Source: Elusimicrobiota bacterium (GTDB lineage Bacteria > Elusimicrobiota > Elusimicrobia > UBA1565 > UBA9628). Taken from it: 46,144 nt of DNA. Position 1 is the first letter of the stretch; each line of letters opens with the position of its first letter. Of this stretch, positions 3,850 through 38,436 are shown piece by piece. The stretch spans positions 1 to 46,144 of the forward strand of contig JACRDN010000008.1 of assembly GCA_016218575.1 (NCBI GenBank), in the 5' to 3' direction. The position numbers were made by a program, and so were the translations under genes. Under the pieces are notes generated by a model. The model saw nothing but the letters and a program-made list of their open reading frames with translations, was not told the DNA's origin and searched no databases.

Positions 3850-3855
3850 ATTGTA
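3850..3855 (-). promoter_or_regulatory. Putative -10 box (TACAAT) for the phosphodiesterase gene
   Basis: TACAAT on the minus strand ends 11 nt before the ATG at 3838, so transcription would begin about 4-5 nt before the start codon. No convincing -35 hexamer is visible and there is no Shine-Dalgarno. Confidence 0.4.
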
Positions 3856-3908
3856 CAAAAAAGCGCGGGGCGGGGGAGGGCTTAGCCGAGCCTGGGCACG
3901 TTGGTTAG

Positions 3909-3944
3909 GGTCTTAAGGCCTAGTCTAGACTAGGCCTTAAGACC
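3909..3944. promoter_or_regulatory. 36-bp perfect palindrome between divergent genes (possible operator)
   Basis: Bases 3909-3944 are a perfect inverted repeat with no loop, centred on TCTAGA at 3924-3929 and bounded by GGTCTTAAGG and its complement. It lies between the divergent phosphodiesterase and glycosidase genes, roughly 70 bp upstream of one start and 60 bp upstream of the other. No T-tract follows on either strand, so a regulator-binding dyad is more likely than a terminator. An extragenic palindrome is the alternative. Confidence 0.55.
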
Positions 3945-4004
3945 TAGCACGTTTGGGTCCTAAGTCCTATACTTTATTTCCCTGGGTTTATTTAAAATGG
4001 GCGC

Positions 4005-19580: not shown

Positions 19581-20558
19581 ATGGCATCATCGAACGGCGG
19601 TTTTCAGGGATCGGGGCGTTGGGCCGTGATCTTGGGCGGCTCCTCGGGGTTCGGCCTGGCCACGGCCAAGAGACTGGCCCAGGCCGGGGTGAACATCCTC
19701 ATCGCGCACAAAGACAAGGAGGGCACGGTTGAGACCGTGATCAAGCCCCATTTCGAGGAGATCCGCAAGCACGGGGTCGAGCTCGTCACCCACAATGCCA
19801 ATCTCTTCGACGACGAGGAGCGCGGGATGGTGTTCGAGAGCATTGAAAAGCATGCGGGGGCCGGCAACGTGCACCTGTTCATGCATTCCATAGCAGCCGG
19901 CTCCTGCAAACTCGTCGTCGAGGATAAGTCCCCCGATTTCAAGGGACAGGCCTTCAAAGGCCTCTCCGAAGCTTTGAAAAACGAGGGAGTCTCGGCCTCG
20001 CCCGAACTTCTGCGAAAGGCCGTCAACCTCGCCTTTCACGAAAAGGGTTGCGACGCCCTGTACACCTTGGCCGAAAGCCGCATTCCTTATAAAGAGGACC
20101 CCTTGAACGAGGACGATCTCCAGCGCACGATTTGGATGATGGGCTACGATTATCTCCTCTGGGGCCGAGAGCTCTTAAACGCGGGCCTCTTGACCAAGGA
20201 CGCGCGCATGGTGGCCATGACCTCGGAGGGCAACGAGGTCGCCTGGAAGGGCTACGCCGCGGTCTCGGCCGCCAAATGCGCTCTCGAGGCCTCTTGCCGG
20301 GCCATGGCCGTGGAGCTGGCCCCCTACGGGGTGCGCTCCTACGTCGTGCAGGCCGGAATCACCGACACCCCGGCCGGAAACGCGATCCCTAATTTCGACC
20401 TGATGAAGGCCCAGGCGCGCCTCAGAAATCCCTTCCACCGCCTGACCACTCCCGAGGACGTAGCCGAGGCCATCTTCAGCCTCTGCCTGCCTTCTTTCTC
20501 CTGGACCAACGGAACCATCATCCGCGTGGACGGAGGCGAGGCCATCTCGGGGCTGTGA
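19581..20558 (+). CDS. Enoyl-[ACP] reductase-like SDR (FabI-type) with an insertion
   Basis: 325 aa. The nucleotide-binding loop is VILGGSSGFGLATAKRL (residues 16-32). The catalytic pair follows the enoyl-reductase pattern Tyr-x6-Lys (Tyr225, Lys232 in GYAAVSAAKCALE) instead of the Tyr-x3-Lys of ordinary SDRs. The C-terminus has the usual TNGTIIRVDGGEAISGL. It should reduce trans-2-enoyl chains on the carrier in the last step of each elongation cycle. It is about 60 residues longer than FabI (about 260 aa); the extra helical segment lies between MHSIAAG and WMMGYDY (roughly 107-185), where FabI binds the acyl chain. It opens the operon and overlaps the KAS III gene. Confidence 0.8.
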   Translation: MASSNGGFQGSGRWAVILGGSSGFGLATAKRLAQAGVNILIAHKDKEGTVETVIKPHFEEIRKHGVELVTHNANLFDDEERGMVFESIEKHAGAGNVHLFMHSIAAGSCKLVVEDKSPDFKGQAFKGLSEALKNEGVSASPELLRKAVNLAFHEKGCDALYTLAESRIPYKEDPLNEDDLQRTIWMMGYDYLLWGRELLNAGLLTKDARMVAMTSEGNEVAWKGYAAVSAAKCALEASCRAMAVELAPYGVRSYVVQAGITDTPAGNAIPNFDLMKAQARLRNPFHRLTTPEDVAEAIFSLCLPSFSWTNGTIIRVDGGEAISGL

Positions 20559-21559
20559 TGCTCTCCATAATGGGGATGGGCTATTATTTGCCCAAGACAG
20601 AGATCACCAATGATTTTCTCCACCGAGAGGTGGGCCTCGAGCGAGGCCCGAATTGGGTGGATTCGCGTTTGGGCATCTACAAGCGCTATTCGGTTCTCAG
20701 CCGCGACTACATATTGAGGACCAAGAATCAGAACCCCGCCCAGGCCATGCTCCACGCCAAAAGCCTGGGCGAGACCCCCGTCACTATGGCCGCCAAGGCC
20801 GCCCGCATGGCCTTGGAGCAGGCCGAGGTCCGCCCGGAGCAGGTGGGCCTGGTGATCGGCAACTGCGACACCCCGTTTCAAACCATTCCGAGCCTGGCCA
20901 ACCTGGTCGCCAAGGAACTCAAGATCGGGGGCGGCTCCCACCGGGACGTCAACAGCGCCTGCTCGAGCTTTGCCCTGCACATGCAGATGCTGAGCGAAAT
21001 GGACGCCTCCCGCGTCCCTGAATTCATCCTCTGCCTACAGTCGAGCGCCTACACCACCCGGACCGACTATTCCGCGGCAAGCATAGACGGCTATATCTTC
21101 GGCGACGGCGCCGCGGCCCAGGTGGCCTCCCTCAAACGCCGCGGCCGGCTTCTGGTGGAGCCCATGATTTTCGAGACCAAGCCCTCCGACGCCGATGAGA
21201 TCACGGTGGACATCGCCGGGCACTTCACGCAAAATGGGGCCCTGGTCCGGGAATTCTCCATCCGCAAGACTTGCGAGATGTTCGAGGCTATCGCGCAGGC
21301 CAAGGGCTTGTACGCCGAGCAGGTTTACACCGTGGCCCACCAGGCCAATCACGTGATGCAGGACTCCATCTTGGGCCATCTCAATCTGCCGGAAGAGCGG
21401 CATTTTCGCAACGTCCGCGAGCAGGGCAATATCGCGGCGGCGGGCTGCCCCTCCGCCATTGCCCAGAACCTGCAGCGCCTGCCCAAGGGTAGCCAGCTTG
21501 TCTACGCGGTGGTGGGAGCGGGGCTGGCCTGGGGCGGCGGCTACATGGAGGCTCTATAA
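20558..21559 (+). CDS. Beta-ketoacyl-ACP synthase III (FabH-like)
   Basis: 333-334 aa thiolase-fold enzyme. The FabH-type triad is visible: Cys in NSACSSFALH (about 135), His in VAHQANH (about 262) and Asn in GNIAAAG (about 292). It would condense a starter acyl-CoA with malonyl-carrier to begin chain synthesis. Starter specificity is unknown; NIAAAGCPS differs from the NTSAAS of housekeeping FabH. The start is either GTG at 20555 or ATG at 20558, both overlapping the upstream TGA. It ends one base before the FabG ATG. Confidence 0.87.
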   Translation: MLSIMGMGYYLPKTEITNDFLHREVGLERGPNWVDSRLGIYKRYSVLSRDYILRTKNQNPAQAMLHAKSLGETPVTMAAKAARMALEQAEVRPEQVGLVIGNCDTPFQTIPSLANLVAKELKIGGGSHRDVNSACSSFALHMQMLSEMDASRVPEFILCLQSSAYTTRTDYSAASIDGYIFGDGAAAQVASLKRRGRLLVEPMIFETKPSDADEITVDIAGHFTQNGALVREFSIRKTCEMFEAIAQAKGLYAEQVYTVAHQANHVMQDSILGHLNLPEERHFRNVREQGNIAAAGCPSAIAQNLQRLPKGSQLVYAVVGAGLAWGGGYMEAL

Positions 21560-22288
21560 ATGACCAAGGACATCGCGGTCGTGACCGGCGCCTCGGGAGG
21601 CATCGGCCGGGCCATCGCCAAGAGAATCCACGAGAAGTCGGAAGGGACCCTGCGCCTGGCCCTGCATTACCACGGCAACCAGCAGGCGGCCGAGAGGCTG
21701 CGCTCGGAGATACCGGATTCCTTCCTGGTGAAGGCCGACCTGACCTCCCAGGGAGGCAGGCAAATGTTGCTTGCCGCCGCGCTTAAGGAAGGAACTCCCT
21801 ACGTGCTGGTCAATAATGCCGGCATAGACAGCCCTCACGAGCCGGCGCTGAATATTCAAGAGGAGTCGTTCGATAAAATCATCTCCACCAATCTTAAGGC
21901 GCCGTTTTTTTTGATGCGCGATTTCGGCCGGGAAATGGCCCGGGCCGAGGGCGGGATCATCGTCAACGTGAGCTCCATCCTGGCCCGGAAGGCCCTGGTC
22001 GGAAGCGCCATTTACCGCGCCTCCAAGGCGGCGCTCGAGGCCGCGACCAAGCAATTCGCCTCGGAGCTCGGGCCCCGCGGGGTCCGGGTGAGTGCTGTGA
22101 CCCCGGGCTTCATCGAGACCCCCATGACTAACGGGCTCTCCCAGGAGCTCAAGGAAGAGATGCGCGCCGAGATCGCGCTGGGCCGCTTCGGCGCTCCCGC
22201 GGCGGTGGCCGAGGCCGTATGCCAGCTCATAGAAAACGACTACATCAACGGCGCCGTGCTCGCAGTGGACGGGGGGATGAGCCTGTGA
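21560..22288 (+). CDS. fabG: 3-oxoacyl-ACP reductase (FabG-like SDR)
   Basis: 242 aa, normal for FabG. TGASGGIGRAIA binds NADPH, NNAG follows at the end of beta-4, and the catalytic Ser/Tyr/Lys are in VNVSSI and YRASKAALE. It reduces the 3-keto intermediate made by the condensing enzymes. It begins immediately after the KAS III stop (TAAATG) and its last bases overlap the dehydratase start (GTGA). Confidence 0.9.
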   Translation: MTKDIAVVTGASGGIGRAIAKRIHEKSEGTLRLALHYHGNQQAAERLRSEIPDSFLVKADLTSQGGRQMLLAAALKEGTPYVLVNNAGIDSPHEPALNIQEESFDKIISTNLKAPFFLMRDFGREMARAEGGIIVNVSSILARKALVGSAIYRASKAALEAATKQFASELGPRGVRVSAVTPGFIETPMTNGLSQELKEEMRAEIALGRFGAPAAVAEAVCQLIENDYINGAVLAVDGGMSL

Positions 22289-22776
22289 ACGATCTCACCC
22301 CCGCCGAGGTCCTGGCCTTGGTCCCCCAGCAGAGGCCCATGCGCTTCATAGACGAGATACTTGAGCTCGACCAGGAGCATATCCTCGCGGTTTACACCTG
22401 GAAGGACGAGGACTGCGCCGGGCATTTTCCCGGCAACCCCGTAGTCCCCGGGGTCAAGCTCATAGAGATGTCGGCGCAGGTGGGCAACGTGGCCTGGGGG
22501 ATTTACCACATGGCCCTCAAGACCTCCCCCGAGGAGATCGGCCTCATGGTCGGATTCTTCACCGAGATAGAGCGCGGGGTTTTCAAGAAGATGGTGCGCC
22601 CCGGAGACAAGGTGGCGGCCTACGCCCACTTCGGCCCGGACGGCTACTTTCGCGGCAACAAGATGGCCAGCCGCGTCGAGATCCAGTTCTCGGGCGGGCC
22701 CAAGGACGGCGAGGAGATATTCTCCGCAAGAACCTCCGGGCTGTGGGTCCCGAGGGATTCCCCCGCATTGAAATGA
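22285..22776 (+). CDS. 3-hydroxyacyl-ACP dehydratase (FabZ-like hotdog protein)
   Basis: 163 aa. The FabZ active-site stretch is clear: GHFPGNPVVPGVKLIEMSAQ, with catalytic His47 and Glu61, and RPMRFIDEI upstream corresponds to the FabZ RYPFLLVD region. It dehydrates 3-hydroxyacyl chains. GTG at 22285 is chosen: it overlaps the FabG stop as GTGA with a G-rich stretch upstream. The reading frame extends 66 nt further upstream, but those residues are FabG sequence read in another frame. It overlaps the next gene by ATGA. Confidence 0.87.
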   Translation: MNDLTPAEVLALVPQQRPMRFIDEILELDQEHILAVYTWKDEDCAGHFPGNPVVPGVKLIEMSAQVGNVAWGIYHMALKTSPEEIGLMVGFFTEIERGVFKKMVRPGDKVAAYAHFGPDGYFRGNKMASRVEIQFSGGPKDGEEIFSARTSGLWVPRDSPALK

Positions 22777-24089
22777 CCATGAGAAAGCGCGTGGTCGTGA
22801 CCGGGTTGGGCGTGGTGGCCCCCAACGGCGTGGGCCTGGCCAATTACCGCCAGGCCCTGCGGGCGGGCAAATCCGGCATCAAGCGGCACGAGGAGCTCGA
22901 AAAACTCAACTTCTCGGCCCAGATCGGCGGGATCCCCCCCCTCGAGGAGGAGGACGTCCTCCGGGTCATCTCCGAGAGCGACTACCACAAACTCAACGAG
23001 GCCATGATCTACACGGCCCTGGCCGCGGTGGAATGCGCCCGCAGCTCCGGGGTCGATATTGATCTGCGCAAGGGCTACCAGGCAAACCCCGTGGATTGGA
23101 GCTCAGGAGCCATCATAGGCTCGGGCCTGGGCGGAATGGACACCATTTTCAACGAGATCGGGCCCACCTTGGAGGAGGCCGCGAGCCAGGAGCCGGGACG
23201 CGGCACCATGCCCATGGGAACCGACATCGTGCCCAAGGTCATGGGTTCCTCGATCAGCGTCACGGTGGGCAAGTTCCTGGGGGCTGGCGGCCAGGTGAGC
23301 TCCAACAGCTCCGCCTGCAACACCGGAACCGAGGCGATTTTCGAAGGCTTCAAGCACCTCCAGCTCGGCTACGCAGAGTCCATGTACGTGGGCGGAGCCG
23401 AGGGAACGCATTACGCGCTCTGGGCCGGGTTTGACGCCATGCGAGACGTGCTCTGCTCCAAGTTCAACCACATGCCCGAAAAGGCCTCCCAGCCCATGGG
23501 GACCGGGGCCTGCGGCTTCGTGCCGAGCGGCGGGGCCGCGGTGCTGAGGCTCGAGACCCTGGAGTCGGCCGGGAAGCGCGGGGCCCCCATCCTCTGCGAG
23601 CTCGTCTCTGCCTATTGCAATTCCGGGGGCCAACGCGACGGCGGCACCATGACTTTCCCCAACGCCGACGGGGTGTCTCGCTGCATCCGAAAGACCATCC
23701 AAGATGGAGAGATATCTCCAAAGGATATTTCTCTTATCAACGGACATCTGACATCCACCACGGCTGACCCGAGGGAGGTCAACTCCTGGATCCGAGCCCT
23801 CGAGCTCGATCCCAAGAAGTTCCCGTTCATCCAAGCCACCAAGTCCATGATCGGGCATTGCCTGGGAGCGGCCGGAGCCCTGGAAGCCGCCGCGGTCGTG
23901 GACCAACTCGTCCACGGCTACGTGCACCCCTCAATCAACAGCGAGGAGGTCCACCCCGAGATTTTGAAGGTGTCCCAAAGCATCCCCCACGAGCTCCAGG
24001 AGCGAGAACTCCGCTACGTCATCAAGGCCTCCTTCGGCTTCGGAGATGTCAACGGCTGCCTATTATTCAAACGCTGGGAGGGTTCATAA
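22773..24089 (+). CDS. Beta-ketoacyl-ACP synthase I/II family (FabF-like)
   Basis: 438 aa. The condensing-enzyme Cys-His-His triad is intact: Cys182 (SSACNTGTEA), His325 (NGHLTSTTADP) and His362 (KSMIGHCLGAAGALE, with the conserved Lys357). It elongates the acyl chain with malonyl-carrier. The motif around His325 has GHL where FabF has AHG, so it is a divergent branch and not the housekeeping enzyme. ATG at 22773 overlaps the dehydratase stop (ATGA). It is followed directly by the carrier-like hypothetical gene. Confidence 0.88.
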   Translation: MTMRKRVVVTGLGVVAPNGVGLANYRQALRAGKSGIKRHEELEKLNFSAQIGGIPPLEEEDVLRVISESDYHKLNEAMIYTALAAVECARSSGVDIDLRKGYQANPVDWSSGAIIGSGLGGMDTIFNEIGPTLEEAASQEPGRGTMPMGTDIVPKVMGSSISVTVGKFLGAGGQVSSNSSACNTGTEAIFEGFKHLQLGYAESMYVGGAEGTHYALWAGFDAMRDVLCSKFNHMPEKASQPMGTGACGFVPSGGAAVLRLETLESAGKRGAPILCELVSAYCNSGGQRDGGTMTFPNADGVSRCIRKTIQDGEISPKDISLINGHLTSTTADPREVNSWIRALELDPKKFPFIQATKSMIGHCLGAAGALEAAAVVDQLVHGYVHPSINSEEVHPEILKVSQSIPHELQERELRYVIKASFGFGDVNGCLLFKRWEGS

Positions 24090-24090: not shown

Positions 24091-24990
24091 ATGGCATTCA
24101 AGAGACGGGAGACCGTGATCGAGGCGGTGGATTTGAACGCGATTTCGCCCGACGAGACCGAGAAGAAGATCATCGCCGGAGTCAGGAAATACGCTACCAA
24201 CGAGGCCAACTGGTCCAAGGCCGACGGCAACGTCCCCTACCTCGGGCACATCATCGGCATGGGCATCGAGTCAAGCAACCTGGCCGACATCACCATGTCC
24301 ATCGAGAGGCAATTCCTCACGCGCAAGACCAAGCGCGTGCCCCTGGCCGAGGGGAGCGCTGAGTTTCGCCTGGAGGACGGGGAGCTCGGAAAGCTGCGCA
24401 TCCTCGATGGGCAGGACGCTCTGGCCGCCACCCCGGGGCTCTCCGTCAAGATGCTCATGGATTTCGGCCATATGCCCGAGAACGAGGCCTATCTCTCCAA
24501 GATTGTCTCTTTCGCCTACATCGTGGCAGTGGGCGATGGCTACAAGATGAACGATGCTCTCCGCAAGGTCCTGGCCAAGCTCGAGAAGCTCTCCGGGACG
24601 GAGAGGGAGGAGGCCGTCCAGAACTTGAGGGCCATGGCCGAACAGGCCAAGGCTTACGAGGCGCTCCTCGCCGACCCCAAAGCCTTGGCCGCCTCGCGCC
24701 AAAAGTCCTACGAGAACGACAAGCGCGCCTGCGAGGCATTGAGCCAGGATCTGGCGGTGGCGAGCGACAAGATCAAGGGCCTCTCTTCCTCCAACGATAC
24801 CGCCCAGATCGCATCACTACGCTCCGAGGAGGGGGAGCTCAAGACCCGCCTCAAAATGGCCCAGGCAAAGCTCCGGGTTTCCGAGGAGGCGGCCAAGGAC
24901 GCGGCCAACCGAAAACCCGTCGAGGAGGCCAAGGTGCGGGAGCTGCGAGGACTCCTCTCGGAGAGCTTGGCGCAGGCCGCCAAGCATTAG
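24091..24990 (+). CDS. Unrecognised protein with an ACP-like N-terminal segment and a coiled-coil C-terminus
   Basis: 299 aa; ATG at 24091 with GGAGGG about 10 nt upstream. I recognise no named family. Residues 20-76 resemble an acyl carrier protein: a first helix DETEKKIIAGVRKYA, then GIESSNLADITMSIERQF, which matches the carrier pattern G-[LI]-[DE]-S-x-x-L-x-[ED]-[LI]-x-M-x-[LI]-E-x-x-F, with Ser61 at the phosphopantetheine position (Glu-Ser-Ser where ACP has Asp-Ser-Leu). Residues 80-150 are of unclear fold and 155-299 are a long charged, Ala/Lys/Glu-rich coiled coil. As no ordinary ACP is encoded in the operon but a phosphopantetheinyl transferase is, this protein is the best candidate carrier. 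That is inference. Confidence 0.6.
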   Translation: MAFKRRETVIEAVDLNAISPDETEKKIIAGVRKYATNEANWSKADGNVPYLGHIIGMGIESSNLADITMSIERQFLTRKTKRVPLAEGSAEFRLEDGELGKLRILDGQDALAATPGLSVKMLMDFGHMPENEAYLSKIVSFAYIVAVGDGYKMNDALRKVLAKLEKLSGTEREEAVQNLRAMAEQAKAYEALLADPKALAASRQKSYENDKRACEALSQDLAVASDKIKGLSSSNDTAQIASLRSEEGELKTRLKMAQAKLRVSEEAAKDAANRKPVEEAKVRELRGLLSESLAQAAKH

Positions 24991-24993: not shown

Positions 24994-26397
24994 TTGCTCG
25001 CCCGCGAGGAAACCTTCGCCTTAAAGGTCCAGGGCCTGGCGAGCCGGGCCTTCGCCTGGCCCATTTATTGGGCCATGGTCGCGGCGGGGCGACTTTACTT
25101 CCGCTACAAGTTCTCGGGCTTGAAGGAGTTCCGCCGCGAGATTTGGGAGAAGCTCGAGTCCCGCGAGGGCCCGGTGATCTGGGCCGCCAACCACCTGACC
25201 CTCATCGACTCATTCCTGGTGTTCTGGGCGGTCTGCCCCTGGCGCAAGGCCGCCGACAGGCGCCTGGGGCCCTGGTCCACGCCGGAATACCGCAATTATT
25301 ACCACCTGGGGGGCTTCTTCAAGGCCCGGCTCATCAGAGGCCTCATGTATCTCTGCCGCTGCATCCCTTTCCTAAGGGAAGGAGAGGACGAAGCCTCGGC
25401 GCGCTGGCGCGAAAGGGTCTTCGACAAATGCGCCTGGCTTCTCAACAACGGGGGCTCTGTCTTCATCTACCCGGAGGCCGGCCGCTCGCGCTCGGGCTGG
25501 CTTGACCGGAGAAAACCCAAGGATTTTCTTGGGCGCTTGGCGTTGATGGCCCCCAATGCGTCTTTTCTCTGCGTCTATCTGCGCGGGGAGTCCCAGCTCT
25601 ACACGACCGCGGCTCCAGCCAAGGGCGAGACCTTCCGCATGCATGCCGACCTCATCCCCGCGGTCCTTCCAGGAGAAACCGCGCCACGCCAGATTTCCCA
25701 GCGGCTTTTCGACAAATTGAGCGAGCTCCAAAACCTATGGTTTGCGGGTAGCGCCCTTCCCAAGAACTGCGGGGGCAACGATATCGTCGACCTCAACTCC
25801 CCCCTGGCCCGGGAGCATTTCGACCCGGAGACCGGAGATGTGGACCCCGACTGGAGCGAGCGCCACTTCACGGCCAAGGAGCGCGCTTACCTCGCCGAGC
25901 TCCCTAGGGAGCGGGTCTACCCGGCCTGCTGGAAATTCCTGGCGGCTAAAGAGGCTTCTCACAAAGCCCTCTCCCAATCAGGAATCCACACGCCCTCTGG
26001 AGGATTCCTGATGCTACAGGCCGACCTCTTCCGGCGCCGGGTCCTGCACAGGCCCACCGGAGCCCAGGTCGAGATCGCCTTCACGGATGAGGGCCCCGAG
26101 AGAGTCCATTGCCTGGCTGTTTTCCGGGGCGGCTCGCTTGGTTCCGCCGAGGAGGCGGGGGATGTTCTGTGGGAAGTAAGCGAGCTCCCGCAGGGAGCTC
26201 GCCCGCAAGACCATGTTCGGGAGATGTGCCTGCGACTTATCGCCTCCTCCTCGGATGAGATCAAAACTCCCGACGTTCTTAGTTTCACCGAAGTGGACGG
26301 AATACCGAAGGTTCTTTACAAGGGGAAAGCCCAGGACTGGGGGCTTTCCCTATCTCACTCAGGCCGCTTTACGGCCTGCTCGTTCATGATCTCATGA
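24994..26397 (+). CDS. PlsC-like acyltransferase fused to a 4'-phosphopantetheinyl transferase
   Basis: 467 aa, two domains. Residues 15-240 are a lysophospholipid-acyltransferase fold: NHLTLID (the HX4D motif, His67 and Asp72) and FIYPEAGRSRSG in the place of FPEGTRS. Residues 255-467 are a phosphopantetheinyl transferase: GGNDIVDLNSP (compare AcpS GIDIVDI), WKFLAAKEASHKAL and a terminal LSLSHSGRFTACSF. It could both activate the carrier and transfer the finished acyl chain to a lipid acceptor. TTG at 24994 is the only start after an in-frame TAG three nt upstream, and it lacks a clear Shine-Dalgarno, so reinitiation or read-through from the previous gene is possible. Three perfect hairpins occur in its last 220 bases. 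Confidence 0.82.
   Translation: MLAREETFALKVQGLASRAFAWPIYWAMVAAGRLYFRYKFSGLKEFRREIWEKLESREGPVIWAANHLTLIDSFLVFWAVCPWRKAADRRLGPWSTPEYRNYYHLGGFFKARLIRGLMYLCRCIPFLREGEDEASARWRERVFDKCAWLLNNGGSVFIYPEAGRSRSGWLDRRKPKDFLGRLALMAPNASFLCVYLRGESQLYTTAAPAKGETFRMHADLIPAVLPGETAPRQISQRLFDKLSELQNLWFAGSALPKNCGGNDIVDLNSPLAREHFDPETGDVDPDWSERHFTAKERAYLAELPRERVYPACWKFLAAKEASHKALSQSGIHTPSGGFLMLQADLFRRRVLHRPTGAQVEIAFTDEGPERVHCLAVFRGGSLGSAEEAGDVLWEVSELPQGARPQDHVREMCLRLIASSSDEIKTPDVLSFTEVDGIPKVLYKGKAQDWGLSLSHSGRFTACSFMIS
26180..26202. other. Perfect intragenic hairpin in the acyltransferase/PPTase gene
   Basis: GCGAGCTCCC, loop GCA, GGGAGCTCGC. Two more follow: 26323-26350 (GGGAAAGCCC, 8-nt loop) and 26360-26378 (CAGGCCG, 5-nt loop). 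A longer-looped pair lies upstream at 25978-26011 (TCAGGAATCC). All are within coding sequence near its 3' end. Confidence 0.6.
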
Positions 26398-27344
26398 CCT
26401 CCATGGATAAAAAATACTGCGTGATGTTCGCCGGGCAATCCGTCCAGGAGACCGGCATGTGCCGGGAGTTGTGGGAGCTTCCCGCCGCGCGGGACGTTCT
26501 CAAGAGGCTTAAGCCTTCATTGGGCGAGGACCTGGAATACATCACGACCGGGATGCCGGAGTCCGAGCTCGCCCTCACCTTCAACGCCCAACGCGCCATC
26601 CACGCCCATCACCTGGGCCACTGGTTCGCCTATAAGGCCGCTCATCCGGGCCTGGCCTTGGATGGGGCCGTAGGCCACTCCATGGGAGTCGTGGCTGCCC
26701 TGGTGGCCGCCGGATGCTTGAGCGTGGAGGACTCCGGAGTGTTCATCCGCGCCCGAGCCCAAGCCTTCTCCGACGTTTGCAGGAGCTTTACGGTCCCCAT
26801 GGGACTTGCCGCCATCTCCACCGAAGTCCTGGACGATGCCGTGGGTGAGCTCAAGGCCTTTTCCGGCGTCGAGTTGGCCCTCCACAACACCGTCGGCCGG
26901 GGCGTATTGGGAGGAACCCTCGCCAACCTGCAGGCCTTCGCGGCGAAAGCGGAGCAAGAGGGGTGGCCGGTGAAGATAAGAATTTTAAAGGTAGAAGGAC
27001 CTTACCATACTAGCGCGTTCACTTCTTGCAAGGAATCCCTAAAACTAGCTCTCGACCGGGTCGAACTTCGTTCGCCCCGGGTCTCATTATTTATGGGCAC
27101 TTCCGGACGGCGGGAGAGGGATCCTCAAAGGATAAAGGAATTGCTTGTAGAGCAGGCCGACTCCTGCGAGAAGCATCTGGCCGCGGTCCGTTCGGCCTAT
27201 GAGGCGGGCTGCCGGAATTTCCTGGAGGTAGCCCACAAGCCCCAGCCGCTGACCTGGATCAAGGACCAGCTGCAAGACGAGAAGGGCGAGCTTCTCCCGG
27301 GAATCTCGACCCTCGCCGTCAAGACGGCGGAAATCGGGAGATAG
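26394..27344 (+). CDS. Malonyl-CoA:ACP transacylase family (FabD-like)
   Basis: 316 aa. The acyltransferase fold shows MFAGQSVQETGM (compare FPGQGSQ), nucleophile Ser96 in VGHSMGVVAALVAAG, an Arg in FIRARAQAF that would bind the malonyl carboxylate, and His205 in EGPYHTSAF. It would load malonyl units from CoA onto the operon's carrier. The GHSMGV and FAGQS variants set it apart from housekeeping FabD. Its ATG overlaps the previous stop (ATGA). It closes the operon and its 3' end overlaps the convergent queC by 26 bp. Confidence 0.85.
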   Translation: MTSMDKKYCVMFAGQSVQETGMCRELWELPAARDVLKRLKPSLGEDLEYITTGMPESELALTFNAQRAIHAHHLGHWFAYKAAHPGLALDGAVGHSMGVVAALVAAGCLSVEDSGVFIRARAQAFSDVCRSFTVPMGLAAISTEVLDDAVGELKAFSGVELALHNTVGRGVLGGTLANLQAFAAKAEQEGWPVKIRILKVEGPYHTSAFTSCKESLKLALDRVELRSPRVSLFMGTSGRRERDPQRIKELLVEQADSCEKHLAAVRSAYEAGCRNFLEVAHKPQPLTWIKDQLQDEKGELLPGISTLAVKTAEIGR

Positions 27345-27954: not shown

Positions 27955-28688
27955 GACTGCTCCACCCCAGCGCAAAAGCGCGCCTTTACGTCCTCCAGCA
28001 TGGGCTCGCAAAGAGCCGGGCTTGCACCCATCAGCAGGCGGCAATACGCCGATTCTCCGCAGAGCTTCAAATCGCGGGCGTCGTAGGCCCGGTGGTAGGT
28101 CGCAAGATCCTGACATCTCCTGGGGAAAGGCGGCGGGAGGAGGCGCGGGCATACCGCTGGGTCCTCGCCCCGAGCGTAGAGGAGCCTGCCAACGCAATCC
28201 TCGAGATCGGGGGCATAGCGGTAATAAGGGAGAAGCTCCGAGCAGGCCGCGCGCGGATCTCCCCCGGATCGGAAATAGCGGGCCACGATCGGACAGGCCT
28301 TGCGAAAGGTTCCCGCCTTGAAGGGGCCTCCGTCGCTCGGAATGCGGTGGGAGTTCTCGCGCAGGCAGGCCTCGAGGACCTGGGCGCCGCGGGTGATCCG
28401 CTCGCGGTCGAACATCCAGAGATAGCAGTCTCTTTTGCAGGAGTAGACCAGCGGAAACGGCCATGGTTTTGGAGAACGGCCGGAAGCCTTTCGGTCCAGG
28501 GGGGCCAACTCCTCGCAGATATTGGGGTTGTCGAGAGTGAATGCCCGGCAGGCGAGGTAGAGCCGCGCGTACTCGGCGAGCTCAGGCGCGCGAGCCAAAG
28601 CCTTCTCCAGGGAAAATTCCTTGCGGCAGGCCGCCTCCGGTTGGGCAGCAGCGGCAAAGGCGGCGACGAACAGGAAGCTCAGTGGCAA
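27951..28688 (-). CDS. Secreted cysteine-rich helical protein, unknown function
   Basis: 245 aa starting at TTG 28688, which has a strong GGAGGAG five nt upstream; the residues that follow (PLSFLFVAAFAAAAQPEA) form a signal peptide. The mature protein has about 15 cysteines in repeated units resembling D-[PA]-x-x-C-x-x-L (for example DPRAACSELL and DPAVCPRLL), each probably a helical hairpin. The same type of unit occurs in the C-terminal domain of the MauG-like peroxidase encoded immediately upstream (10-bp overlap), so the two proteins share a domain and probably a compartment. I recognise no named family. It overlaps queC downstream by ATGA. Confidence 0.65.
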   Translation of the reverse strand: MPLSFLFVAAFAAAAQPEAACRKEFSLEKALARAPELAEYARLYLACRAFTLDNPNICEELAPLDRKASGRSPKPWPFPLVYSCKRDCYLWMFDRERITRGAQVLEACLRENSHRIPSDGGPFKAGTFRKACPIVARYFRSGGDPRAACSELLPYYRYAPDLEDCVGRLLYARGEDPAVCPRLLPPPFPRRCQDLATYHRAYDARDLKLCGESAYCRLLMGASPALCEPMLEDVKARFCAGVEQS

Positions 28689-30496
28689 AGCTTCTCCTCC
28701 AGGCCTCGGCTGATGGCCGCGGCCAACTCCATCCCGCGGCCCGCCAGGGCCCGGCAGACGTCCGAGTCTGCGCAGACTCCCGCGTCGCCCGAGGCGATCG
28801 CCTTGCGCGAGAGGGCGATGCCCCGGCAGCGCTCGGCATAGAGATCGAAAGTCCCCCTCAAACCGTCGCATGCGGAGGCCTCTCCCTCGTACGCCTTAAA
28901 GCCCCTGGCGCAGGCCCGCACCTGGTGCGGGCCGTAGTAGCGGGGGACCAGGCTTGGGCAGACAGCCGAGGGACTCTCCATATTCTTCTCCAGAAGCCCG
29001 CACAAGAATTCGGCGTCGTTCGGACCCATCGTCGGTTGGCGGCTCAGGGAATCACGGCATATTCGAGGGAAGTCTTCTGTTCGTCCCGCCAAGGCCCGCG
29101 CGAAGGCCATCTCATGATACCATTCCCGGCAAGCCTCGTCGTGCGGGACGGATTGGCCGGTGAAGACCTTCCGGAAGGGGGCCAAGGCCGAGCAGACCCT
29201 GGGATCCCCCTTGGCCAAGGCCAAATAGCGGAAATAAAGCGCGGCCCGTGGCAAAGCTAGGTCATTGAAAGCCCTAAGGCTCTCCTGCTCCCATGGCGGC
29301 GGAGAGGCTTCTCTCAGAAGAGCCTCCACGCTGAAGGGATGGGGGCATGTCAGAGCTTTCCTTAATAAAGAAGGCCCGGGAGAGTTGCCGTTATGGGCGA
29401 CCCCTTGATGAGCCGCAGAAATTCCCCCTGCCGTTGCATGCGGGCGTTCCTCAAAGCTCGGCGCCGGCAGCTGCGGCACGACGGCGGGCTTTGGAGGTGT
29501 TGTGAGGGCCTCGAGGAACGCCACCAGAAACTCCTTTTCCTCGGCGGAAAGCCCCAGGGGCTTTATGGCGGGATCCCGGCCTTGGGCCTCGTCGCCGCCG
29601 CGGTCGTAGAAATCCACCACCTCCCTCAGAGTGCGCAGGCTGCCATCGTGCATGTAGGGCGCGGTTAGAGCAGCGTTGCGCAGGGAAGGGGTCCGGAAAG
29701 CGGCCCTGCTGGCCGGCCCCGGCAGGACGGCGGAGCGCCCCTCGTCCGGCATCGGGGATTTTAATCCGATATTGTGAAAATTGCCGTCCGAGAAGTCCGG
29801 TGTCGCGTGGCAGCGCAGACATTGGGCCTTCCCAGTGAAAAGCACGAGACCCCGGGCCACGGCCGGCTGCATGGGCGCGCCCTTCTCATGGAAGCGGTCG
29901 AATGGGCTGTCCGGCTCCTGCTCCAATGAAGCCACGAAAGCCTCGAGGGCGCGCGCGGCGAGGGCGGGAAGATTTTCCTTGCGCCCGTAAAGCCTATCCA
30001 GACCTCGGGCGTAGAACGGGATCGCCCTAAGCTTGGAGTCCAAAGCCTCCAAGCCCTGGTTCATCTCCTTTGGGTTGCGGATGGCGCTCAGGACGGCTTC
30101 GCTGATGCTCTTGGCTCGCCCATCCCAGAAGAGCAGCTTGCTGTAGTGGACGTTGAGCAGGCTCGGAGTGTTGCGCGGACCCTCCTGGTGGTTGAAGCCT
30201 TTGGCCCTGGGCAAGCCGTCCGACCAGGCCAGGCCGGGCTGATGGCAGGAGGCACAGCTCACCGCATTGTTGACGGAAAGCCGCGGATCGAAAAACAGCT
30301 GCTTGCCGAGCTCGACCTCCTCGGACTTGGCGAGGGTTTTGCGGCGCAGATACGGGAAAAAAGCGTCTATCTTGTCGAGGGCCGCCCCCAATTCTTCAGG
30401 GCTTGGGAACGCTGCCTCGCGGCCCTCTGCCGCGCCGGCAAGACCCATAGAGAGAAAGAATACCCCGCTCCAGGCCCTGCGCTTAAAACTGGACAT
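28679..30496 (-). CDS. MauG/cytochrome c peroxidase-type diheme protein with Cys-rich C-terminal domain
   Basis: 605 aa with a signal peptide (about residues 1-24). Residues 35-355 are a di-heme cytochrome c peroxidase/MauG domain with CASCH (81-85) and CLRCH (226-230), plus the family segments LGKQLFFDPRLS, RNTPSLLN and FRTPSLRNAALTAPYMHDG. Residues about 375-605 form a separate domain rich in cysteine and charged helices, related to the protein encoded downstream. The MauG domain reduces peroxide or performs long-range oxidation of a partner protein; the fused domain may be that partner or a docking module. ATG at 30496 overlaps the end of the small upstream gene. Heme attachment would depend on ResB/CcsA. 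Confidence 0.85.
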   Translation of the reverse strand: MSSFKRRAWSGVFFLSMGLAGAAEGREAAFPSPEELGAALDKIDAFFPYLRRKTLAKSEEVELGKQLFFDPRLSVNNAVSCASCHQPGLAWSDGLPRAKGFNHQEGPRNTPSLLNVHYSKLLFWDGRAKSISEAVLSAIRNPKEMNQGLEALDSKLRAIPFYARGLDRLYGRKENLPALAARALEAFVASLEQEPDSPFDRFHEKGAPMQPAVARGLVLFTGKAQCLRCHATPDFSDGNFHNIGLKSPMPDEGRSAVLPGPASRAAFRTPSLRNAALTAPYMHDGSLRTLREVVDFYDRGGDEAQGRDPAIKPLGLSAEEKEFLVAFLEALTTPPKPAVVPQLPAPSFEERPHATAGGISAAHQGVAHNGNSPGPSLLRKALTCPHPFSVEALLREASPPPWEQESLRAFNDLALPRAALYFRYLALAKGDPRVCSALAPFRKVFTGQSVPHDEACREWYHEMAFARALAGRTEDFPRICRDSLSRQPTMGPNDAEFLCGLLEKNMESPSAVCPSLVPRYYGPHQVRACARGFKAYEGEASACDGLRGTFDLYAERCRGIALSRKAIASGDAGVCADSDVCRALAGRGMELAAAISRGLEEKLCH

Positions 30497-30632
30497 AGCG
30501 AAACGGACCGACAGGGTTTTGCAGGGCCAGGTAGACGACCGCGGCGGCGGCCGCGGCGAGGGCCAGCAGGGCAAGCCCCCACCATGCCCTGAGCCGCCAG
30601 AGAAAGGAGAAGACTTTTTTCAGGATTTCCAT
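30483..30632 (-). CDS. Small membrane protein, DUF5989-like
   Basis: 49 aa. It has a charged N-terminus (MEILKKVFSFLWRLRAWW), one membrane helix (GLALLALAAAAAAVVYLAL) and a terminal NPVGPFRYVQF resembling the PFIYTLF ending of DUF5989 proteins. Such proteins are often encoded next to SGNH hydrolases and membrane acyltransferase or carbamoyltransferase genes. Here it starts eight nt after the SGNH hydrolase stop and overlaps the peroxidase start by 14 nt. There is no Shine-Dalgarno, so coupling to the upstream gene is likely. Function unknown. Confidence 0.7.
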   Translation of the reverse strand: MEILKKVFSFLWRLRAWWGLALLALAAAAAAVVYLALQNPVGPFRYVQF

Positions 30633-30640: not shown

Positions 30641-31591
30641 TCATAATTTAATCTTTTGCAGGACGAGTTCGGCAATGACCTGGTGCGCCTCTTGATTGGG
30701 ATGCGTGTCATCCCGGGCCACCCACCACCGGTGGGGTTCCCCCTCGCCGCCGAAGGCCTCCAGGGCGTCGATAACGACGCAGCCCCGGGTCTCGAAGACC
30801 CGCCTTATCCGCTGATGGATAGGGGCAAAAGGGTAGTCCTTAAGCTCATGGAGGTCGGGCAGAAGAAGAACGGTGAGCTTGGCATCGAGCGCCTGCGCCT
30901 GGTCCGCGGCCTCTTCCAGCAAGGCCTTGTAGCGCGGCCAGCGCTCCCCCGCGTAAAGCGAATTGTAGTAGGCGGCGTACTGACGCCCGGGAGAACGGCT
31001 CACCTTCCAAGCCCGGGCCATGAGTTTGCCGACCACGCAGATCATTGAGTGCCGCGCCAGGAAGTTAAGCCGGTATTTTTGGGCGCTCTCGGCGTCGTTG
31101 ATGAAGAACGCCAGAATGATATGGTCGGGCCGGTATTTATAACCCTCCTGGCGCAAATAGGCCAGCTCTTGGGCCGTGCCGTAATTGCCCACGCCCGCGT
31201 TGATCACCTCGTAGCGCCGCCCCGCGGGGCGGCGCGGTCCGCGGTTCAAGGCCTCCTCGATCCTGCGGCAGAAAGTCTTATCCTGAGCGACCCCGAAGCC
31301 GAAGGTCAAGGAATCCCCGAGGACCAGGACGCGGTAGACCCCGGCGGGTTTGTCGTAGGCCTTTTCCGGCCCCCTCAAGCCCTTGGAGTTGATGCGGACC
31401 TCCACCCCCATGATCCGAGCCGAGGCTCCGGGACGGTGGACGTGGGAGCGGGCGTCGCCCACCGATCGCTTGAGGAGCTGGGAGTATTTCCACATCTCGA
31501 CGTCGTAATTCTGGACGAGGAGAAAGCCGAGCCGCAGAAACGCCTCCGCCATGGCGATGGAGAAGAGGAGAGGCGCCGCAGTTTTTCGCAT
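30641..31591 (-). CDS. SGNH/GDSL-family hydrolase
   Basis: 316 aa with an N-terminal hydrophobic segment (residues 6-27, anchor or signal). The SGNH blocks are present: block I VLVLGDSLTFGFG (Ser94), block II VINAGVGNYG, block III in the FFINDAESA region and block V DDTHPNQEAH (Asp294, His297). It is probably an O-acyl esterase acting on an envelope glycan or lipid. It leads an operon with the DUF5989-like peptide, and is divergent from a TPR gene that carries its own SGNH-like domain. TATAAT at 31604-31609 lies 12 nt upstream of the ATG, with no good Shine-Dalgarno. Confidence 0.85.
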   Translation of the reverse strand: MRKTAAPLLFSIAMAEAFLRLGFLLVQNYDVEMWKYSQLLKRSVGDARSHVHRPGASARIMGVEVRINSKGLRGPEKAYDKPAGVYRVLVLGDSLTFGFGVAQDKTFCRRIEEALNRGPRRPAGRRYEVINAGVGNYGTAQELAYLRQEGYKYRPDHIILAFFINDAESAQKYRLNFLARHSMICVVGKLMARAWKVSRSPGRQYAAYYNSLYAGERWPRYKALLEEAADQAQALDAKLTVLLLPDLHELKDYPFAPIHQRIRRVFETRGCVVIDALEAFGGEGEPHRWWVARDDTHPNQEAHQVIAELVLQKIKL

Positions 31592-31652: not shown

Positions 31653-33776
31653 GTGAAGAAGCTGATCGTAGCGGCCCTACTTCTCTCCCGCGGCGTCGGA
31701 CAAGCTCTGGCCCAGGCAGTCAACGACCCGATTTCGCGGCGTTATTATTACGAGGATATCTTTGAACCGTTCTTCTCGCCCGATAAAGACAACCCCGAAA
31801 TTTACCGTTCCCGACGTCCGGGAGCGGCCAACGGCTCCTTCCCCATCCGTAAGGGCAAGGACGCCTTTCGGATTTTCATCCTAGGAAGCTCCATCGCCAA
31901 GCTCTTCGGGGAAAGCCGCGAGGGAGGCTTTCGGGAAATGCTGGGGAAAGCCTCGCCCTTCAAAGAGATAGAGCTCCTTAACTGCGGGATGAGCGGCTAC
32001 GACAGCTTCCGGACCCTAATGCTCGAATCGGAGGTTCTCGCCTATTCTCCGGATCTCATCGTCATCCTCATGGGATTCACCGAAGCCGCCGGCACGCCCC
32101 CGGTCCCCCTGTGGCTGCTCAAGGTCCAGGATCGCCTATCCCGGCTCAAGGCCTACCAAGCGCTCCTCGATAAATTTTCCGCCGGTCCCCCCTCGCGGCC
32201 TTACGCCGAGATGGAAGCGGCCTTCGGCGCCAACCTCCGCCAGATGCTCCGCCAGGCCCGCCTCAAGGGAGTCCCCGCGGTGGTGGTAGTGCCTCCCCTC
32301 AATTACAGGGACGCCCCCCCGACCGGACCTGCCCCGGCGGACGAACGCTTCGTGAAGGGCTGGGTGCTCCACCTTCAAGGCCGGCATCGGGAGGCGGCCG
32401 CCGAGCTAAGGCTCTCGGGTTCCGCTCTGGGCCTCTTCTATGCCGGGAGATCTGAGGAAAGGCGCGGCCTTGCTGAAGACGCCCGCAGGGACTACGAACG
32501 CTCCATTGACCTGGACCGCAAACCAGACGACCTGCGCTGTGGCTCTTCCTGCCGGGGGCTTATCAAGCGCGTTTCGCGCGAGGAAGGAGCCATTTTGGCG
32601 GACGCCGACGCCCTGTTCAAAAGGAAGGCATTTCCGGGACTGCCGGGCCTCGACATGTTCGACGACGCCGTTCACTGGAAGAGCCCCTGCAACGCCCTGG
32701 TCTCGGCGGCCGTTATCGAGAGCATGGGAAAGAAGCCGGAGATGAAATCGCTCGAGGCTTGCCCCGGTGCCCGGGGAAGCTGGACCACCCTTGAATACGC
32801 CTTCAACCAGATCTCCGCGCCGAACCGGCGATCCTTGTCGCACCGGGCCGTCGTCTTCCTGGAGGCGTCCCTCGGGAAACGGACCGAGCCTGAAGCGCTC
32901 CCCGCCTTGGTGAAGAGGGCCGCGGCGAGCGCCGCGGCCAACGCGGGGCCCTGGGGAGCTCCCGCCGTCAATACAGATCCTTCCCTTTTTTACTGGCATT
33001 TGGGCGAGATCGAATCCCTTCGCGGCAACCTTCAGGAGGCTGGCCGCTTCTACTCCAGAGCCCTGGCCTTGAATCCCGCCCTTCCCCGCCTATGGGCAAG
33101 CCAAGCCGTCGCGCTGGCCTTGCTCCGGGATCGCGACGGCGCGCGCCGGAGCTTCACCGAGGGATTGGCCCGCGCCCGAGGCCCTGGGAGAGAAGAGGAG
33201 TCCCGACATATCCGCGCGGCTATGAGAGCCCTGGGATTGGAGCAGTCTCCGAGAACACCGCCGGCCGCGCCGCGCCACCTAAAAAAGAGCTCGGCGCCGC
33301 GCCTTCAACCCTTCTGGACCGCGCAGGCCTACTCCGCGCTGAGGGCGAAAAACCGGCGGCTGGCCCTCGAGTTCCTGGCCAAGGCCATGAGCTCGGCCCG
33401 CGCCCCCGGGGACCTGCACGCCGCCGCCTTGGGCTACCAGGAGGCGGGAGACCTAAAGACCGCCCTGCGTCTCTTGAATGGGCTCGCCCGCCGCGCGCCG
33501 CCGCGCGCCGAATATCTCAAGGATTTGGGGATATGCCTGTACCGTAGCGGGAATGTCGCGGAAGCAATTAAAAGCCTGGAAGCCGCGGTCAGGCTCGACC
33601 CGGAGGGGCCGCAAGCCCTGATGAGCCTCGGCTCGATATACCAGTCCCAGGGGCGCCTAAGGCAAGCCCTCAAGCTCTACGACTCGGCCCTGGCGGCGGG
33701 GCTCGGGGGCAAGGAGCTCAATGCCAGGATTCGAGACAGCCGGAAAGAAATACTTTCTCTGCCGCGCAAGCCCTGA
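31653..33776 (+). CDS. Exported SGNH-like domain protein with C-terminal TPR repeats
   Basis: 707 aa with a signal peptide (MKKLIVAALLLSRGVGQALA). Residues 60-350 look like a divergent SGNH fold: ILGSSIAKLFGES replaces GDS by GSS, ELLNCGMSGYDSFR matches block II, and MFDDAVHWKSPCN supplies the Asp and His of block V. A TPR-like insert (about 230-285) interrupts it. Residues 430-700 carry several TPRs, such as GEIESLRGNLQEAGRFYSRALALNPALP and later copies. It may be a catalytically altered or carrier-binding SGNH protein. GTG at 31653 is set by the signal peptide. It is divergent from the canonical SGNH gene, suggesting co-regulation. Its end forms a terminator hairpin shared with the next gene. 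Confidence 0.75.
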   Translation: MKKLIVAALLLSRGVGQALAQAVNDPISRRYYYEDIFEPFFSPDKDNPEIYRSRRPGAANGSFPIRKGKDAFRIFILGSSIAKLFGESREGGFREMLGKASPFKEIELLNCGMSGYDSFRTLMLESEVLAYSPDLIVILMGFTEAAGTPPVPLWLLKVQDRLSRLKAYQALLDKFSAGPPSRPYAEMEAAFGANLRQMLRQARLKGVPAVVVVPPLNYRDAPPTGPAPADERFVKGWVLHLQGRHREAAAELRLSGSALGLFYAGRSEERRGLAEDARRDYERSIDLDRKPDDLRCGSSCRGLIKRVSREEGAILADADALFKRKAFPGLPGLDMFDDAVHWKSPCNALVSAAVIESMGKKPEMKSLEACPGARGSWTTLEYAFNQISAPNRRSLSHRAVVFLEASLGKRTEPEALPALVKRAAASAAANAGPWGAPAVNTDPSLFYWHLGEIESLRGNLQEAGRFYSRALALNPALPRLWASQAVALALLRDRDGARRSFTEGLARARGPGREEESRHIRAAMRALGLEQSPRTPPAAPRHLKKSSAPRLQPFWTAQAYSALRAKNRRLALEFLAKAMSSARAPGDLHAAALGYQEAGDLKTALRLLNGLARRAPPRAEYLKDLGICLYRSGNVAEAIKSLEAAVRLDPEGPQALMSLGSIYQSQGRLRQALKLYDSALAAGLGGKELNARIRDSRKEILSLPRKP

Positions 33777-36758: not shown

Positions 36759-37825
36759 GGGGAAGCGGCGAGGGCCTTCATCTCGTCCACGAGCCTCGGG
36801 AAGAAGGATTGGAAGTTGGGATAACGCGCCTTTTGGATCTCGAACTCGACCAATCGGGAGGCCAGAGCCTTCACGTAGGCTTGCGCCGGAGACTGCGGGA
36901 GGGGTATATCCCGGCCCAGGAGGCGCTTGCTTATGCGCAGGCTCAGCGCGGAAATGACCAAGTGCTTGGCGCAGGCCTCCCAGGAGGGCGGGCAATCCCG
37001 GGCCGCCGGCCCGTAAAGGGCCGAGAGCCCCTTGATCTTCTCCTCCGAGTCGACAAATCCCCATTCCACGGGGATATACAAGGGCTTATAGCCGTCTCCG
37101 TCCTGGAAGAAATCGCCGAGGCCGAAATAAGGCCGACCGTCCCGGATATTCGGCAGGCCGTGAATGGTGAAAACCGAGAAAGGCCCCTTGCCCTTTCTTC
37201 CCGGGCCCTGGTAGGGGTAGGGCCATATGAAGGAAGTGAAGCGGCTGCGGCTGTAGAGAAGGGGAAGGATGACGGTCATGCGGCAGTCAAGATCCTGGCG
37301 CAGGTATGATTGCATCAAGGCCAAATAGTCCGTCCCGTCCAGCTCCTGGCGGGCCAAGCTCTCGTAGCGCGCGTAGCCCCTGGAATGCTCGCGGTAAAAT
37401 TCCATGAACTTGGAGGCCCTGGCGAAATCGCGCATTTCCACGAGGAAGCTCTCGACCGCTCCGATTCCTCCGAGCGACTCAATGAAGCCCTGGGGGAGTC
37501 TGGCGCGCGGAACCTTCCAGGCCAGGACCGGGGGCTCGGTTAAAAAGAAAAAAATGATGCCGAAGGCCTCCTCGCTCGGGCGCCTCGAGGCCGCGGCCGC
37601 ATAGGCCTTCACGGCGGGATGCGAGCGAAAAGCCGCGAAGCGCTTTCGAACCAAGGACGGCTCCGGATAGATTCCCTCCGACGACTCCCCCAGCCCCGCT
37701 AGGCGCTGGACCGCGCCCAGAAGCTCGAAGCGGGGATCGACGGCGACGGAGAGATTCGAGCTCCCCCAGGCCGCGCCGGAGCGCGCCAGGAGAAGAAAAA
37801 GGGTCACTTTCCGGCGCAGGCCCAA
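36755..37825 (-). CDS. Degenerate paralogue of the operon's HExxH metallopeptidases (predicted pseudoenzyme), exported
   Basis: 356 aa from TTG 37825, which has GGAGG seven nt upstream and gives a proper signal peptide (MGLRRKVTLFLLLARSGAAWG). GTG at 37807 is an alternative that overlaps the upstream stop. The family opening is VDPRFELLGAVQRLAG (29-44) and the tail VEFEIQKARYPNFQSFFPR is present. Where paralogues have HExxH, this protein has PVEWG (252-256), and the third-ligand Glu is Lys287 (AKHLVISAL). All three zinc ligands are therefore lost while the fold markers remain, suggesting a binding, regulatory or substrate role. Confidence 0.72.
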   Translation of the reverse strand: MGLRRKVTLFLLLARSGAAWGSSNLSVAVDPRFELLGAVQRLAGLGESSEGIYPEPSLVRKRFAAFRSHPAVKAYAAAASRRPSEEAFGIIFFFLTEPPVLAWKVPRARLPQGFIESLGGIGAVESFLVEMRDFARASKFMEFYREHSRGYARYESLARQELDGTDYLALMQSYLRQDLDCRMTVILPLLYSRSRFTSFIWPYPYQGPGRKGKGPFSVFTIHGLPNIRDGRPYFGLGDFFQDGDGYKPLYIPVEWGFVDSEEKIKGLSALYGPAARDCPPSWEACAKHLVISALSLRISKRLLGRDIPLPQSPAQAYVKALASRLVEFEIQKARYPNFQSFFPRLVDEMKALAASP

Positions 37826-38436
37826 AGCTCGTCCTCCGTGAACTTAAGCTCCGAAACCCTGCGATTGAGGAGGAGAAACGAGAGCAAGGAGGAATGCCCG
37901 GCGAACGGCGCTGAAATGTCGAGAGCAAGGAAGGAGGGCCAGGACAGGGGCTCGGCGAAGCGAACAGCCCACCAATCCGCCGAGCGCGCCATGCTCGCGA
38001 CCGGATGCAGGCGGTGGAGGGCCGCGAAGGCCGCCTTGAGCTCCGGGTGACCCATCATCCCGGGAGAGAAGGCGCGGTCTTGGCCGGCGGACTTGGCGGA
38101 AAGAACGGACCCCGAAACAAAACGGTCCGCGGCTGGGTCCCATACGAGCTCGAGCCAAGGAAAACCTGGCGCGGGGGCGCAGCACCTGGGGCCCATTTTG
38201 GAGAGCCCCAGGACCCGGGCGGCAGCGGCAGACCAGGAGGCGTAATTCTCCGATCCGCCTCCATAGCGAAAGCCCAGTTTTTTTGCCGGCCCGATGCTCG
38301 ACAGCATCAGCTCCCAAGAGCCCTCACGGCAAACCTCGTCCAATCGTCCGAGGAAAGCCTTCAACTCCCCGCATTCCAGCGCCGGAAAGGATTCAAGGAG
38401 GGCTCTCAGCCACTCGTCTCGCTCGACCCGGTTCAA
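37804..38436 (-). CDS. Unrecognised 210-aa protein paired with the HExxH hydroxylase-like enzyme
   Basis: 210 aa, no signal peptide or membrane helix. I recognise no family. Notable features are a CC pair (GPRCCAPAPG, about 102-105), a Trp/Phe-rich second half (SADWWAVRFAEPLSWPSFLALDISAPF) and a helical N-terminus. ATG at 38436 overlaps the stop of the alpha-ketoglutarate-HExxH-like gene (ATGA) and its own end overlaps the next gene by 22 bp, so it is made together with both. It could be a substrate, a partner subunit or a substrate-recognition protein for that enzyme; nothing in the sequence decides this. Confidence 0.65.
   Translation of the reverse strand: MNRVERDEWLRALLESFPALECGELKAFLGRLDEVCREGSWELMLSSIGPAKKLGFRYGGGSENYASWSAAAARVLGLSKMGPRCCAPAPGFPWLELVWDPAADRFVSGSVLSAKSAGQDRAFSPGMMGHPELKAAFAALHRLHPVASMARSADWWAVRFAEPLSWPSFLALDISAPFAGHSSLLSFLLLNRRVSELKFTEDELWACAGK

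Follow-up and report, generated by a model that had tools for sequence, protein, structure and literature searches.

The stretch of DNA studied here is contig JACRDN010000008.1 of an Elusimicrobiota bacterium (assembly GCA_016218575.1); we call its whole length of 46,144 nt the window. It contains an operon for type II fatty acid synthesis (FAS II), with all genes on the forward (+) strand. Its order is: a short-chain dehydrogenase/reductase (SDR) type enoyl reductase (19581–20558), a FabH-like β-ketoacyl-ACP synthase III (KAS III, 20558–21559), a FabG-like ketoreductase (21560–22288), a FabZ-like dehydratase (22285–22776, with a probable GTG start), a FabF-type ketosynthase (KS, 22779–24089), a protein of 299 amino acids which we call X (24091–24990), a PlsC-type acyltransferase (HX4D) fused to a Sfp/AcpS-type phosphopantetheinyl transferase (AT-PPTase, 24994–26397, with an uncertain TTG start) and a FabD-like malonyl transferase (26394–27344). 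X is the subject of this work: it has an N-terminal domain which resembles an acyl carrier protein (ACP) and ends in a long coiled coil.

All enzyme families of a type II synthase are matched in this cluster: ketosynthase, KAS III, malonyl transferase, dehydratase and, by their profile matches, ketoreductase and enoyl reductase. The catalytic motifs of the first four are conserved among the orthologues: Cys-His-His in the KS and Cys-His-Asn in FabH, both intact in the window, GHSMG in FabD and the His and Glu motifs of FabZ. The score of every one of these proteins is under the curated cut-off of the named NCBIfam equivalogs, which indicates that the whole enzyme set is divergent; for the enoyl reductase the nearest model is FabL. 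In the AT-PPTase the acyltransferase family PF01553 is above its cut-off. PF01648 is found with E 6e-4, under the curated cut-off, and we place the domain in this family: the GxD and KEA..K motifs are kept in 29 of 29 aligned rows. The catalytic residues of the PlsC domain are conserved as well, except that one AT-PPTase row has Val in place of Glu in its Pro-Glu motif. An Rfam scan of the window gave no match.

The frame of X starts with ATG at 24091, with GGGAGG upstream, and stops with TAG at 24988–24990. It begins one base past the KS stop and ends three bases ahead of the AT-PPTase. The predicted ACP-like domain comprises residues 18–129, with a β-hairpin insert at 75–101; the coiled coil extends over residues 139–299, approximately. 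Residues 58–75 are GIESSNLADITMSIERQF. They contain a stretch similar to helix II of ACPs, from Ser61 to Phe75 (codons 24271–24315), in which Ser61 (codon 24271–24273) is the putative phosphopantetheine site. We have aligned 29 distinct orthologue rows out of 71 loci. The N-terminal 140 residues of X are 69–83% identical to the orthologues and the whole protein 56–74%. Glu60, Ser61, Asn63–Asp66 and Thr68–Phe75 are invariant in the 29 rows. Position 67 is Ile in 27 rows and Val in two; at position 62 there are 22 rows with Ser and seven with Ala, so that the motif reads Glu-Ser-Ser or Glu-Ser-Ala. A preliminary description of this DNA had placed Ser61 at the phosphopantetheine site of the helix-II-like block, at the position where we also find it, and had chosen beforehand its conservation in orthologues as a point on which the idea could fail: it is present in all 29 rows. 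The same description had noted the replacement of Asp-Ser-Leu by Glu-Ser-Ser in a 299-residue coiled-coil protein, which agrees with the frame and with a full-length model, where residues 139–298 form long helices. Matches of the tail to phasin, SMC and eIF3 were regarded as ordinary coiled-coil matches. A biotinyl or lipoyl carrier was also considered for X and set aside: on inspection by eye no Lys motif was found.

The structure of residues 1–140 was predicted with AlphaFold2 from 17 family sequences, free of templates, with medium confidence (predicted local distance difference test, pLDDT, 68; predicted template modelling score, pTM, 0.63). The model has a helix at 20–34, a helix at 61–74 which starts at Ser61, strands at 75–84 and 92–101, and a helix at 115–124; the full-length model agrees with it on the shared elements. 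Helix I had been proposed at 21–34, very close to its modelled position, and the domain had been thought to end at residue 95, whereas it runs to about 129 due to the hairpin insert. A fold search with the full-length model gave only matches to long helices. Since the coiled coil fills the match list, the N-terminal model was searched alone. In a Foldseek search against the PDB, carriers occupy ranks 1–5 with E values of 0.9–4.3, none of them significant: AcpP, Thermus thermophilus ACP, the domain of ALDH1L1 which we take to be a carrier, an engineered ligase–carrier complex and DltC. By their titles 14 of the 34 Foldseek rows are carrier chains, ALDH1L1 not counted. VIA-align 2 was then run on 148 chains ranked by Foldseek. 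Its best match is T. thermophilus ACP (1x3o), with Z 8.0, a root mean square deviation of 2.4 and 80 of 80 residues aligned to residues 18–129 of the model. Among the 50 matches listed, every identifiable chain is a carrier: ACPs, AcpM complexes and chains of mitochondrial complex I or the mitoribosome, where the titles name the complex only and the chain is presumably mitochondrial ACP. Three chains (6ynx_Q, 8xks_R and 8xqw_J) are not identifiable from titles. Thus the fold test suggested for the N-terminal part in the preliminary description did not refute an ACP, as the best structural matches are carriers, at pLDDT 68 and with helix III not clear. The program notes that Z below 8, or below about 13 for helical bundles, may reflect a common arrangement; for this reason we consider these matches to be good but not conclusive evidence for an ACP fold of residues 18–129.

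X is found in 28 of a sample of 294 genomes of the phylum; 16 of its loci are named from the genome collection. A profile search of the 294 genomes for distant relatives outside the cluster gave the same 28 with high scores and, beyond them, only weak matches to the coiled coil in G088 (E 0.0015) and G197 (E 0.05); a further match outside the cluster is an 18-residue piece at a contig end. The cluster KS and the AT-PPTase are each present in 29 of 294 genomes, namely the 28 with X and one more each (G213 and G292, partial matches in fragmented assemblies). The AT-PPTase lies directly downstream of X in 28 of 28 genomes, with gaps of 7–178 nt. In 22 of the 28 the KS precedes X by at most 1.6 kb; in one it is farther away on the same contig and in five, all of one genus, it is on another contig. 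In the four named loci of this split kind which are long enough (L037, L039, L040 and L041), X, AT-PPTase and FabD remain together. The two enzymes kept with X are those which act on a carrier before elongation. In the genome of the window the cluster KS is the only match to PF00109 at E≤1e-8, as it is in eight more genomes with X (G199, G248, G071, G094, G162, G205, G222 and G283), and FabD is the only match to PF00698. A genus which lacks X, g3 (for example G164, G296, G297 and G084), has FabF-like KSs with about 190–200 bits. No other complete gene cluster for fatty acid synthesis was found in the genome of the window. As its only KS and only malonyl transferase belong to the cluster, and from the FabF-like KSs of g3, we infer that this cluster acts as the main FAS in the X-bearing clade.

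Some relatives show variants of the cluster. In L035 (6742–7878, − strand), L042 (4318–5442, +) and L044 (2003–3130, +) there is an extra gene with two tandem FabA-like domains (PF07977), whose sequence suggests a double dehydratase/isomerase. It is absent from the window operon, and the only two FabA-family matches in that genome are the cluster FabZ and the FabZ of the lipid A locus. L036 has two adjoining FabH copies in its cluster (2691–4687). L045, a record titled Acidobacteriota, has the whole cluster with X at 68% identity, similar to Elusimicrobia records; it is probably a mislabelled bin, or else a case of transfer.

The enzymes of the cluster differ from canonical ones in the residues which bind AcpP. 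According to a study of Escherichia coli FabF (PMC7138838), its Lys65, Arg68 and Lys69 (region 1) and Arg127, Lys128 and Arg206 (region 2) contact acidic residues of AcpP, and Leu37, Val40 and Met44 of AcpP form a central patch. In the canonical FabFs of relatives without X all three region-1 positions are Lys (five of five readable rows). In 30 distinct rows of the cluster KS the position of Lys65 is never basic, and that of Arg68 is Arg in two and His in ten. The neighbouring column, that of FabB Arg62, is Glu in 20 of the 30. The net charge of the segments is +1 to +2 in the five canonical rows and mostly negative in the cluster rows, from +1 to −3 in both segments. The other condensing enzyme shows a similar change: at the position of E. 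coli FabH Arg249, which we take to be an AcpP docking residue, there is Arg in four of four PDB relatives, Val or Ile in all ten orthologue rows that could be read, and Val in the window. On the carrier side, the AcpP residues Leu37, Asp38, Val40, Met44, Glu47 and Glu48 correspond in X to Ser/Ala62, Asn63, Ala65, Met69, Glu72 and Arg73.

We consider it fairly probable that X is a remodelled acyl carrier dedicated to a divergent type II FAS, with the carrier role deduced from context and the fold predicted; beyond sequence, the AlphaFold2 model of residues 1–140 and the co-occurrence and linkage with the FAS cluster support it. Residues 18–129 would fold as an ACP with a β-hairpin spliced in after helix II. 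The adjacent PPTase domain would place 4′-phosphopantetheine on Ser61, FabD would load malonyl on X, and elongation of the chain on X would be the work of KS, FabH, FabG, FabZ and the enoyl reductase. The acyl chain may then pass from X to the fused PlsC domain. The coiled coil might oligomerise, or tether X to the enzymes or to the membrane, and AcpP would remain for other uses, probably lipid A synthesis. A wider proposal is more tentative, and we hold it as a possibility rather than an expectation: that the clade has swapped its main FAS for a divergent set with its own neutral, hairpin-inserted, coiled-coil ACP, whose docking surface is unlike that of AcpP, so that the two carriers are mutually exclusive, X for chain building and AcpP for lipid A and other uses.

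Several observations weigh against X as a carrier, among them the sequence comparisons. PF00550 does not match X at E≤10, and X is absent from the three PF00550 matches of the genome; no carrier family of Pfam or NCBIfam matches it either. The Asp-Ser-Leu signature of PF00550 carriers is replaced by Glu-Ser-Ser/Ala. As both profile and signature fail, we do not file X under PF00550. The residue which precedes the Ser varies also in carriers of related genomes, where we find His and Asn. A local ACP hidden Markov model (HMM) was made with 21 carrier domains from this genome and its relatives; full-length orthologues of X reach −0.9 to 3.2 bits with it, within noise. Their N-terminal 160 residues score 0.8–5.0 bits, which is equalled by 1 to 38 of 2000 composition shuffles. 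Most orthologues align over residues 21–79 or 53–79, approximately, in register with carrier helices I and II. A comparison of X with carriers by hhalign gives P 0.011 for residues 53–75 only, and this score is exceeded by three of 200 column shuffles. When 4189 segments were scanned in six frames, X orthologues fell among the chance matches, at a distance from the three real ACPs (68–102 bits). When the hairpin was cut from the alignment, with six choices of its ends, the profile match still did not reach helix IV, and two of four control cuts gave an equal score. We have rejected sequence homology as the only proof of ACP identity, since there is no profile match and the scores lie within noise: by sequence alone the ACP resemblance of X is weak and not above noise.

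The model and the docking residues also have features of this kind. There is no clear helix III in the model, with the β-hairpin in its place, and the loop ahead of Ser61 has pLDDT under 50. AlphaFold2 may have recognised the helix-II motif, in which case the fold evidence is not independent of it. The position of FabF Lys69 is Lys in 30 of 30 cluster KSs. Nor does X have the strongly acidic surface typical of FAS ACPs: residues 18–129 have a net charge of −2 (0 to −4 in 20 orthologue rows), compared with −13 in AcpP. In favour of a carrier, charge is lost on both X and the enzymes, as is expected for a changed carrier–enzyme pairing; this is an argument from the pattern of residues.

Finally, the genome has an ordinary carrier and part of the ordinary machinery. 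A textbook AcpP is located between fabG and rnc, an order found in 27 of 27 ACP loci with a row, both X-bearing and X-less (L095 and L096 gave no row). The preliminary description had stressed that the operon encodes a PPTase and no ordinary ACP. For the operon this is correct: the PPTase motifs are present, and the local ACP HMM detects no ordinary ACP anywhere in the window or in 16 orthologue loci, while in the same run the three known ACPs score 68–102 bits. It does not apply to the genome; with AcpP next to fabG and rnc the argument is weaker than it looks, and X is not the only carrier. The genome also retains AcpS and, between lpxC and lpxA, a canonical FabZ. From the lpxC-fabZ-lpxA locus AcpP has an obvious remaining client, lipid A synthesis. 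The retention of canonical FabG, FabZ and AcpP means that the single KS must also serve AcpP, or that chains pass from X to AcpP; that the KS may serve AcpP is a further difficulty for a dedicated carrier. At least one PF00550 match is present in 36 of 38 genomes of the family. G248 (95% complete) has X, cluster KS and AT-PPTase and no PF00550 match: there is either a gap in the assembly or a genome which does without AcpP, and the latter, if true, would be decisive.

Other carriers are also found in these organisms. In the genome of the window a 774-residue frame, FkbH-like by eye, has a C-terminal carrier domain and is followed by a Sfp-like PPTase (L056, 4289–8164). In L128, L132, L133, L134, L138 and many other matches there are tandem carriers of the 'LGIDSIK' type together with KS domains, in frames of at least 2000 residues similar to polyunsaturated fatty acid (PUFA) synthases; none was found in the genome of the window. 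This kind is reported for Elusimicrobium minutum in PMC3098273.

Two other explanations have to be weighed against a dedicated carrier. X might be a scaffold with the fold of an ACP which no longer carries acyl chains: the FAS enzymes would dock on its head and be gathered or anchored by its coiled coil, with AcpP as the carrier of the chains. The ACP-like predicted fold joined to a long tail would suit such a role, as would the altered Asp-Ser-Leu, the absence of an acidic domain and the strong conservation of canonical AcpP in X-bearing genomes. We find it unlikely: a scaffold leaves the invariance of Glu60 and Ser61 in 29 of 29 rows and the constant presence of a PPTase with intact motifs after X without a reason, and it has AcpP dock on KS and FabH enzymes whose basic residues for it are mostly gone. 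The other explanation goes further and takes the likeness itself as chance. X would be a coiled-coil protein that partners the FAS cluster in a structural or regulatory role, with an accidental helix-II resemblance and a short motif which misled AlphaFold2. Sequence tests with P of about 0.01, equally good chance matches elsewhere, a best Foldseek E of only 0.9 and a hairpin instead of helix III all agree with it. Accident would hardly account for carriers at the first five Foldseek ranks and in all identifiable VIA-align 2 rows over the full ACP length, for an invariant Ser at the start of helix II, or for a gene context which is exactly that of a carrier; we judge it improbable as well.

As a carrier, X would have relatives in kind: both second ACPs with a specialised function and ACPs with extra domains are known. 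Compared with canonical AcpP of FAS II and the T. thermophilus ACP, X has in common the predicted fold over the 80 residues of 1x3o, the Ser at the start of helix II, the aligned equivalents of Met44, Glu47 and Phe50 and the FAS II gene context. It differs by the hairpin after helix II, Glu-Ser-Ser/Ala instead of Asp-Ser-Leu, a near-neutral charge, a coiled coil of 160 residues and no detectable sequence similarity. Rhizobial AcpXL is a specialised second ACP which works with FabZXL, FabF1XL, FabF2XL and LpxXL. Like X it is a dedicated carrier whose gene adjoins its own KS, dehydratase and acyltransferase; however, AcpXL is a small ACP of ordinary appearance beside a separate housekeeping FAS, whereas the KS of the X cluster is the only one. 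The ACP of yeast FAS I carries an extra structural domain, as described in PMC8683515, so that in both cases an ACP core and an added domain form one carrier. There the addition is within a megasynthase, while X, a type II protein, stands free and has a hairpin in its core and a coiled-coil tail. In Enterococcus faecalis AcpB is an atypical auxiliary ACP, a second divergent carrier alongside AcpP in one cell; the work on it (PMC6509188) concerns regulation by exogenous fatty acids, whereas X is encoded in the main FAS operon and has extra structural elements. A literature search, with most subscription papers outside its coverage, found no published account of a protein like X.

The window has other genes downstream of the operon. 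A di-haem cytochrome c peroxidase of the MauG type (28679–30574, −), with more haem-binding motif matches, adjoins a QueC-like gene. Two divergent neighbours (30641–31591, −, and 31653–33776, +) both have GDSL lipase matches, the second below the cut-off and with TPR repeats. They are followed by a TPR protein of 944 residues with DUF4932 at its C-terminus (34230–37064, −) and a frame of 901 residues with no Pfam match at E≤0.01 (38433–41138, −).

Few carrier folds are as conserved as that of the ACP, and in FAS II its acidic docking surface is commonly held to be universal. If our interpretation of X as a carrier is true, X, with its hairpin, neutral surface and coiled coil, together with a KS and a FabH without the matching basic residues would be a ready-made second carrier–enzyme pairing, in which the evolution of ACP recognition could be tested directly. 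It would also bear on the synthesis of membrane lipids by an uncultured clade of Elusimicrobiota.
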